A stretch of 50,636 nt of DNA from a virus. The notes beneath the pieces were generated by a model. The model was not told where the DNA came from. It saw only the letters and a list, made by a program, of their open reading frames with translations, and searched no databases. The translations under genes and the position numbers were made by a program. Shown one piece after another: positions 5,329-7,304 of this stretch. The stretch's first letter is position 1, and each line of letters opens with the position of its first letter. The DNA is taken from IMG/VR virus record IMGVR_UViG_3300027833_000072, positions 1-50,636 of that record; one strand, given 5' to 3'.

Positions 5329-6241
5329 TCAAGAAAGAATCAAGATCGTCATCTGTACTAACTGCTGCAGCTGGTTTTGATTCTGTCTTTGCAGGTGCCT
5401 CTGCTTCAACTACAGTTGTTGCTGTTGCACTTGTAGTCGCTTTTCTTGGTGTAGATGTAGAACTACTTGTCATCGCAGAGATAGAATCTCCAGGGTTTAA
5501 GTACATTCTTAGTACATCATTTATAAAAGCTCTAGTATCTTCGTCCCATGCCTTATAGTCATAGTTTACAAGAGATGGTGCATTTTCAAGCTCAGCTTTA
5601 ATTGCAGCCATTGTCTCTTTGTTTCTTTCTGCAGGAGCATCGCCCATTAAGATTGCAGAAGTACTAGCAGAAAACTTAGATTTGTCGTAGTTATTGTATT
5701 CACCTTGACGAGTAATGATCAATTCGAAGTTCTTACCTTCAAACAAGTCAAATACTTGTGTTGGTTCACCGAAATCTGGCTTAAGCTCAGCATCGATTTT
5801 TTCTTTAATCTTATAACCGAATTTGAATACTTTATAAGTACCTTCTAATTCTGGATTTTGTGGATCTTTTACGATCTTAATTAAAGAATAGTACTGCTGA
5901 CGTCTCTTTAATTTCTCTGATGACTTGCGATCTACTGCTGAATCTGATTTTCTCAGTTTCCAGAATACATCTGCAATTGGACATTTTTCACCTATAGAAG
6001 ATGGTGAATCTACCAATTTTCCGTCACCACTAGAATTAGTTAACCAGTGTACGTATTTTTGAATTAGAGAATTTCTTGGATTCTCTGGATTTGGAACGAA
6101 GCGTATTAGTGCTTTGTAAGTTCCGTCTTTGCCGTCATCGGCTGTTGGTTTGTAAACTTCGTTAGAAGAATTACTTGTTTGTACTTGGTGAGTTTCTACG
6201 TCTTCTACGCCCAAGTTAAAAATGTCAAATGAATCGCTCAT
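5312..6241 (-). CDS. 32: Single-stranded DNA-binding protein, T4 gp32-like
   Basis: This 309-residue protein coats single-stranded DNA during replication and recombination. The core segment YKALIRFVPNPENP, then KYVHWL, KCPIADVFWKLRKSDSA and the QQYYSLIKIVKDPQNPE region follow gp32 architecture, as does QVFDLFEGKNFELIITRQG. The end is a Ser/Thr/Ala-rich linker and an acidic tail (DDDLDSFLNDLDI) that in T4 binds partner proteins. Only one cysteine is visible where T4 gp32 uses three Cys and one His to bind zinc, so the zinc site seems lost or replaced. The leader carries a perfectly duplicated 15-base A/C-rich element that may be an autoregulatory binding site. Primase overlaps its end. Confidence 0.93.
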   Translation of the reverse strand: MSDSFDIFNLGVEDVETHQVQTSNSSNEVYKPTADDGKDGTYKALIRFVPNPENPRNSLIQKYVHWLTNSSGDGKLVDSPSSIGEKCPIADVFWKLRKSDSAVDRKSSEKLKRRQQYYSLIKIVKDPQNPELEGTYKVFKFGYKIKEKIDAELKPDFGEPTQVFDLFEGKNFELIITRQGEYNNYDKSKFSASTSAILMGDAPAERNKETMAAIKAELENAPSLVNYDYKAWDEDTRAFINDVLRMYLNPGDSISAMTSSSTSTPRKATTSATATTVVEAEAPAKTESKPAAAVSTDDDLDSFLNDLDI

Positions 6242-6247
6242 ACCTTT

Positions 6248-6280
6248 AAATTGTTTAGTTTGTTAAAATTGTTTAGTTTG
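6248..6280 (-). promoter_or_regulatory. Duplicated 15-base element in the gp32 leader (candidate autoregulatory operator)
   Basis: On the minus strand CAAACTAAACAATTT occurs twice, at 6280-6266 and 6262-6248, 18 bases apart, ending 6 bases before the gene 32 ATG. The RNA would be A-rich, almost free of G and unstructured. T4 gp32 represses its own translation by cooperative binding to an unstructured A/U-rich leader beside the start site, so this duplication is a good candidate for the equivalent site. The duplication is observed; the function is inferred. Confidence 0.5.
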
Positions 6281-6332
6281 AAATTACTTTAATGTCCTTT
6301 CGGTTCTTTATATTGTATAATAATTAATAGTT

Positions 6333-6503
6333 TCAATTAATAGTTAAGATTGCTCCAGAAGGTTCCTTCCATTTATTCTCCTCTAACTTAATCAGTCCTG
6401 ATTTGTGAAGTAACTCTGACGCTTGCTTTTCAGTAAGCTGGTTCGCTATCACCATTTTTTGTAGGATGTTTAATAAACGAAGGTAATCTGTTGTAACTAA
6501 CAT
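6333..6503 (-). CDS. Small hypothetical protein upstream of gene 32
   Basis: I place the start at the ATG at 6503, giving 56 residues (MLVTTDYLRLLNILQKMV...). A longer frame from 6560 is open, but its extra codons run through the promoter-like GATATATAAT at 6531-6540 and encode low-complexity Asn/Tyr/Lys sequence, so it is probably untranslated leader. The protein is one compact helical domain, NILQKMVIANQLTEKQASEL followed by KSGLIKL and then WKEPSGAILTIN. This resembles a small winged-helix-like fold, but I cannot assign a family. It precedes gene 32 with about 90 bases between. Confidence 0.6.
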   Translation of the reverse strand: MLVTTDYLRLLNILQKMVIANQLTEKQASELLHKSGLIKLEENKWKEPSGAILTIN

Positions 6504-6650
6504 GTAATTTATACTTTTGTTATTATACCTATTATATATCTTAGTTCCCGATTGTTTCATGGAGAGGCTTATTGAAAATAAATAATTAAATTATGAAACA
6601 GTTTCTCACAACTAGCATATAACAAATGTTATCTAAGTCTGGAGGAAAGA
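6504..6650 (-). other. Intergenic region with promoter-like element and small palindromes
   Basis: This 147-base gap follows the RuvC-like gene. It contains a promoter-like GATATATAAT (6531-6540), a short palindrome GAAAC-A-GTTTC (6595-6605) and a 14-base inverted repeat ATAACA-AA-TGTTAT (6619-6632). The palindromes are too weak for a convincing terminator and could be operator half-sites. I see no RNA gene in it. Confidence 0.4.
6531..6540 (-). promoter_or_regulatory. Late-promoter-like element before the small gene and gene 32
   Basis: The minus strand reads GATATATAAT, 27 bases before the preferred ATG at 6503. It is identical to elements before the 606-residue, S1, amidoligase, 2715-residue and collagen-fibre genes. 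Its position decides the start of the small gene and could also drive gene 32 and primase. Confidence 0.5.
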
Positions 6651-7304
6651 TTAGGTCGAGGGGTTTGAAACGTATGTAACCAGAAAATAAGCGTCAACTA
6701 GGTCGTCTAACGGCTTCGGGATCTTTTTCCCAATTTCCAAGTTTTTAACCATAGAATGCAAGGGACTTCGAGCCAAGATTGGGTCATCGTTCACATTTTG
6801 CTGATAAGCCTCAAACAACTGAAGCTTATTCATATTACCTTTACCGGCAAACTTCTTAATAGTTGTAGGAGCCACAGTTAATATGTCTTTAACGTGAAGT
6901 TGAGTAATCATCTGTTCTTTAAGAATAGCCGCACCTGCAGCCATGTCAATTATATTGTTAGTTCCCATTTTAGAACCATAAGAAGTACCTTCAAAGGCAA
7001 CTATATAATCTTGTTTAGTTTGTGTAATACTAATGATAATATTAATAATAGCGTCAGCAGTTGCCATGTATCTTCTTACCTTTGCTAACTCATTCTTTGA
7101 ATAATCTCCAAATGTAGTCTTCCAATCTTCTTGATAAATTAATGTGACATCATCTAATAAGCCTATATCTTCCTGAAGCTTTTGTTCCTTTTTGGTACCT
7201 AAGCCTGGTTTAACGTAACTAATATAATGATGTGTGTTGGCTACTGTATCAAATATACAAATGCCTGGGGAATTTAAAGAAAAATCTACTGAAACGTAAT
7301 TCAT
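6651..7304 (-). CDS. RuvC-like Holliday junction resolvase (RNase H fold)
   Basis: This 217-residue protein has the layout of RuvC-type resolvases. A catalytic Asp7 sits in the first strand (YVSVDFSLNSPGICIFD), Glu105 in VAFEGTSYGSK, and Asp201 and Asp204 in the C-terminal PLDDLVDAYFL helix. The segment APTTIKKFAGKGNMNK matches the conserved region before the last acidic residues. It would cut branched recombination intermediates before packaging, the role of endonuclease VII (gp49) in T4, which has an unrelated fold. Its neighbours, gp32, primase, UvsY and UvsW, fit that role. It starts directly after the stop of the upstream 122-residue gene, so the two are probably co-translated. A non-resolvase RNase H-like nuclease is the main alternative. 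Confidence 0.78.
   Translation of the reverse strand: MNYVSVDFSLNSPGICIFDTVANTHHYISYVKPGLGTKKEQKLQEDIGLLDDVTLIYQEDWKTTFGDYSKNELAKVRRYMATADAIINIIISITQTKQDYIVAFEGTSYGSKMGTNNIIDMAAGAAILKEQMITQLHVKDILTVAPTTIKKFAGKGNMNKLQLFEAYQQNVNDDPILARSPLHSMVKNLEIGKKIPKPLDDLVDAYFLVTYVSNPST

Follow-up and report, generated by a model that had tools for sequence, protein, structure and literature searches.

A short-period repeat array in the gene 32 leader of an uncultivated virus group, likened by its anatomy to the T4 gp32 operator

Gene 32 control in T4-like phages and the gp32 of the window

In the gene 32 operator of T4, a pseudoknot at the 5′ end precedes an unstructured UUAAA/UAAA stretch that overlaps the initiation region, and repression requires both the pseudoknot and the repeats (PMC535899; PMC3014915). 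The T4 leader ends in TTAATTAAATTAAATTAAAAAGGAAATAAAA-ATG or, taken over its other extent, in GTTAATTAAATTAAATTAAAAAGGAAATAAAA-ATG. The site size of T4 gp32 is 7 nt per monomer (PMC7826291; PMC10484735). How the protein recognizes its mRNA among other single strands has been described as unclear (PMC535899). The RB49 leader is reported to retain UUAA/UUAAA units and to give no sign of a pseudoknot (PMC535899). Its array is short (the last 45 nt hold a single UUAA), and autoregulation is unproven there.

We analyzed a 50.6-kb virus fragment from IMG/VR (here called the window), whose predicted genes all lie on the minus strand. The product of its gene 32 (Table 1) matched solved gp32 structures of T4 and RB69 at about 1e-16 (8gme, E 3e-16; 1gpc, E 1e-15; also 2a1k), and its acidic C-terminal tail, ...DDDLDSFLNDLDI, aligns with that of T4 gp32. 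The match to the T4 gp32 core together with this tail places the protein in the gp32 family. The Zn(II) ligand set of T4 gp32 is one His and three Cys. In the HMMER alignment, Cys87 alone is kept among the three Cys ligand positions of T4; Ser and Ala stand at the remaining two, and a His of the window protein lies one place off the T4 His. The family of the window gp32 thus probably lacks the T4-type Zn(II) site. The missing Cys ligands concern zinc and leave gp32 family membership untouched.

A four-unit array between a hairpin and the start codon

A preliminary description of this DNA had reported a 15-base element duplicated with an 18-base period, in a leader predicted to be unstructured, just before gene 32, and our analysis bears out both observations. 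The element, CAAACTAAACAATTT, is present in two exact copies, the second of which ends 6 nt 5′ of the gp32 ATG at 6241. It is the sole exact 15-mer pair no more than 60 nt apart in the 50.6-kb window, and no such pair arose in 30 sequences simulated from it with a first-order Markov model. The 18-nt period is twice a 9-nt sub-unit, and the leader reads as four 9-mers, 5′-CAAACTAAA CAATTTTAA CAAACTAAA CAATTTAAA GGT ATG-3′. Taken by itself, the window array did not reach significance in a best-lag shuffle test (p 0.12). An inexact search for CAAACTAAACAATTT-like copies found 12 matches against 8 expected. One near copy with 2 mismatches, CAAACTAAACAAGAT, lies within the RuvC-like coding gene (7008-7022, minus strand) and is probably due to chance.

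Table 1. Features of the gene 32 region of the window
Feature	Position	Strand	Remarks
Gene 32, single-strand DNA-binding protein, 309 aa	5312..6241	-	PHROG 224, E 2e-41
AAAGG, Shine-Dalgarno-like	6243..6247	-	1 nt from ATG in the window
Array of four 9-nt units	6245..6280	-	Proposed gp32-binding part of the leader
Unit 1, CAAACTAAA	6280-6272	-
Unit 2, CAATTTTAA	6271-6263	-
Unit 3, CAAACTAAA	6262-6254	-
Unit 4, CAATTTAAA	6253-6245	-
First copy of CAAACTAAACAATTT	6266..6280	-
Second copy of CAAACTAAACAATTT	6248..6262	-	Retained in many relatives as CAAACTAAACAATTTAAAGG
Weak hairpin, GAAA-GGACATTAAAGTAA-TTTC	6280..6301	-	Directly 5′ of the array; C6280 common to first unit
Promoter-like pair	6307..6336	-	TTGAAA (6336-6331), 18-nt spacer, TATAAA (6312-6307)

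The window leader is rich in A, C and U and lacks G between -45 and -8, and its last 45 nt hold UUAA twice and UAAA three times. It contains no ATG from which an upstream ORF could start. Rfam had no match to the window, and at E<=1 the leader region likewise had none. The 64-nt leader has a predicted minimum free energy (MFE) of -3.4 kcal/mol (z -0.35), and its predicted pairs all belong to the 5′ hairpin, leaving the repeats unpaired. The Shine-Dalgarno (SD)-like AAAGG stands farther from the ATG, at about 4 nt, in relatives that end in AAAGGTATT-ATG.

A hairpin with GAAA/UUUC arms lies upstream of the array in most of the related leaders (mean z -1.0 over 33 starts). It has either a GUAA-type tetraloop or, as in the window, a larger loop containing AUUAAA. 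Changes are confined to the loop and bulge, and a formal covariation test was uninformative because the arms are nearly invariant. As to a pseudoknot, RNAfold, which cannot predict one, gave the weak hairpin alone and, in some relatives, no structure at all. The hairpin is absent from leaders L095, L192, L228 and L186. Compared with L097, L095 has a 15-bp deletion that takes out the hairpin and leaves the array, and so is a natural hairpin-deletion variant.

Farther upstream is a promoter-like pair, of which TGAAAC and TATAA are invariant in 46 of the 48 family leaders. The spacer from TTGAAA to TATAA is 18 nt in 40 leaders and 19 nt in 6, and few other sites of this type occur in the larger related records. 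Initiation about 7 nt downstream of TATAAA would place the 5′ end of the RNA within the 5′ arm of the hairpin. With such a start, RNA from this promoter may or may not contain the hairpin, which is possibly placed at the extreme 5′ terminus of the transcript.

Two other sets of promoter-like sites were seen in the window. On the opposite strand, TGAAAC-N17-ATATAA at 6594-6622 (+) would read into the RuvC-like gene from its 3′ side, and over 20 related loci have similar sites followed by a conserved AGATTAGG... sequence. The predicted RNA from this site is not unusually folded (z +1.0), and the site possibly yields a small or antisense RNA. On the minus strand, GATATATAA occurs at 2076, 14773, 22913, 36781, 38130 and 46386, in several cases shortly upstream of structural-gene starts, and these sites look like T4-type late promoters.

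The leader shares several features with those of T4 and RB69. The array lies upstream of gene 32 and overlaps the initiation region; it is G-poor, A/U-rich and predicted to be unstructured over about 40 nt or more by the start codon; it carries several UUAA/UAAA repeats followed by AAGG and AUG; and a folded element stands 5′ of it. However, the unit in the window is CAA(N)1-3U(U/A)AA with a period of about 9 nt, whereas that of T4 is AUUAA with a period of 5 nt. The window family has a weak hairpin where T4 and RB69 have a pseudoknot, the array period of 8 to 10 nt is not the 7-nt T4 gp32 site size, and the window gp32 is only about 30% identical to the T4 protein. The nearest published parallel is RB49, with UUAA-type units and no sign of a pseudoknot. 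We liken the leader to the T4 operator by its anatomy and do not claim that it belongs to the T4 operator class.

Conservation in relatives and restriction to gene 32

Relatives collected from IMG/VR were reduced to 48 distinct leaders, which are related to each other and not independent (gp32 identity, 75 to 100%). No relatives were found in a genome contig collection, and a distant search with the LR756500 gp32 added one further record.

The exact 15-mer duplication occurs only in the window and one other, near-identical IMG/VR contig. In close relatives the first position is occupied by CAAGGTAAACAATTT, and L130, among the nearest leaders, reads CAAGGTAAACAATTTTAACAAACTAAACAATTTAAAGG. The perfect 15-mer thus amounts to a difference of two adjacent bases on an older, imperfect array. 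The preliminary description had counted a lack of conservation in close relatives against its own proposal, and for the exact duplication that is what was found.

What persists is the short period. In the last 45 nt of the 48 leaders, autocorrelation was 0.47, 0.49 and 0.43 at lags of 8, 9 and 10, compared with about 0.36 in dinucleotide shuffles of the same leaders and 0.29 to 0.32 in 245 leaders of other ORFs from the same loci; the last comparison is the better guide, since the z-scores exaggerate significance when leaders are related and the pattern is window-derived. A second rise at lags 16 to 18 is a harmonic of the 8- to 10-nt period. Per 45 nt, the gp32 leaders held 2.98 UUAA and 5.44 UAAA-type motifs versus 0.68 and 1.50 in the controls, and 3.85 G versus 7.00. 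Units, scored with a pattern derived from the window itself, numbered 0 to 5 per gp32 leader versus 0 to 2 per control. Neither unit number (about 1 to 5) nor spacing (about 7 to 11 nt) is fixed among family leaders. In the most diverged members (75 to 78%) the CAA part fades and UUUAAA-type motifs persist, and in the most distant members the unit count was not above that of shuffles.

Openness of the array is likewise a family trait by prediction. Its mean MFE is -0.22 kcal/mol, and 39 of 40 leaders had an array with less predicted folding than the median of their shuffles. Positions -45 to -8 of the coding strand contain 10.0% C and 6.2% G, whereas the minus strand of the window overall contains 14.7% C and 18.7% G. 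This excess of C over G in the array, against the bias of its strand, points to a role as single-stranded RNA.

We searched 1.45 Mb of sequence from 16 related records for a pattern of two neighboring units. The 14 matches, in 8 records, all fell in gp32 leaders, and the reversed pattern, used as a control, had no match. Within the window, no array was found at other gene starts, structural genes included. Restriction of the two-unit pattern to gp32 argues against a general translation signal. Judged from these sequences, the conserved feature is a G-poor CAA/UUAA(A) array, predicted to be unstructured, with a period of about 9 nt, found at gp32 only and usually behind a small hairpin.

Proposed autogenous repression and its alternatives

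We suggest, with a probability of roughly 0.6, that the array is a gp32 autoregulatory operator that follows the T4 logic with a different unit. This reading is favored because of the gp32 exclusivity, UUAA content and openness of the array. T4-style autocontrol had already been proposed in the preliminary description, in the form of two matching 15-base sites in phase; autocontrol is still the best-supported reading, and the two phased sites have been given up. The 5′ untranslated leader of gene 32 would comprise its own promoter, the 5′ hairpin, and then a selected, unstructured CAA-UUUAAA-type array extending to the start codon. We infer that gp32 binds this leader and that binding represses translation. 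When gp32 is in excess of the available single-stranded DNA, monomers would bind in a row along the open array, possibly beginning at the hairpin, which may nucleate binding. The loaded protein would cover the initiation region, so that ribosomes could not start. The 36-nt array could hold about five gp32 monomers at 7 nt each. One 9-nt unit per monomer was considered and not adopted, as a T4 monomer occupies 7 nt and the T4 unit measures 5 nt; it is kept as a possibility only.

An unstructured leader would suit plain strong translation too, and this counts against the operator reading. As the main alternative, the array could be a translational enhancer, a ribosome landing or S1-type site that works without gp32 binding. 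It is A-rich as well as unstructured, and open leaders would matter in a virus in which 36 of 38 genes other than gp32 have no SD-like sequence (2 of 38 have one) and starts are A-rich. CAA-rich repeats such as the omega leader of tobacco mosaic virus enhance translation in E. coli; omega has tandem, short ACAAUU-like repeats, unfolded and upstream of the AUG, and the window array is built in the same way. Bacteroidetes tune initiation by structure and by A at -3 (PMC6847099). However, other strongly expressed genes should also carry a general enhancer, whereas gp32 alone among the gene starts of the window has the array and all two-unit matches in 1.45 Mb are at gp32. Unlike omega-type enhancers, the array is confined to one gene, that for a single-strand nucleic-acid-binding protein. 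An enhancer thus accounts for the openness of the array and fails to account for its gp32 exclusivity, and we regard it as rather unlikely.

The 38 minus-strand gene starts are A-rich at -1 to -3 and at -12 to -15, which, together with the missing SD sequences, suggests a Bacteroidota-like host.

In such a host the leader might be nothing beyond an ordinary A-rich, SD-less start context with a small chance duplication and no specific function. Other starts in the window are indeed A-rich, some with AAACAAT, and the exact duplication is limited to two contigs. We consider this very improbable, since period, motif count and G depletion go far beyond the 245 control leaders and the signal persists in 48 distinct leaders of variable copy number. 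The array is flanked by a conserved promoter-like pair on one side and the ATG on the other; this location, together with its A+T-rich, repeated sequence, would also fit an element acting in DNA, at which a transcription regulator binds or the duplex is unwound. But the spacing varies and is not a helical repeat, and avoidance of G on the coding strand only has no duplex-level reason; we give such an element hardly any credence.

The leaders of the far more distant gp32 genes of Lak-C1 and LR756504, whose proteins are only about 30 to 34% identical, are UUAA-rich as well, and those of KVP40 and one cyanophage have other short repeats. A best-lag repeat test on 19 other gp32 leaders gave a Fisher p of 0.006, driven mainly by KVP40, Sf-CH1b and LR756500 in a hand-picked panel with related members; 38 control leaders of the window gave 0.69. 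Given this modest significance and the choice of panel, we treat the idea that gp32 leaders of T4-like phages are repetitive in general as a lead only. The speculative and, in our estimate, unlikely extension is that T4-related gp32 leaders are selected as short-period, structure-free arrays of lineage-specific units (AUUAA in T4, AUACA in KVP40 and CAAUUUAAA in the window family), in which repetition and openness, rather than any single fixed sequence, make the operator and slippage re-tunes copy number.

For the window family, the leader array looks like a new version, with a different unit, of the known T4 gp32 self-repression switch. The 48 natural leaders, with about 1 to 5 units and with or without the hairpin, form a ready set for measuring specificity and threshold. 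If confirmed, the operator reading would extend gene 32 autocontrol to a large group of uncultivated marine phages, mostly without Shine-Dalgarno sequences.
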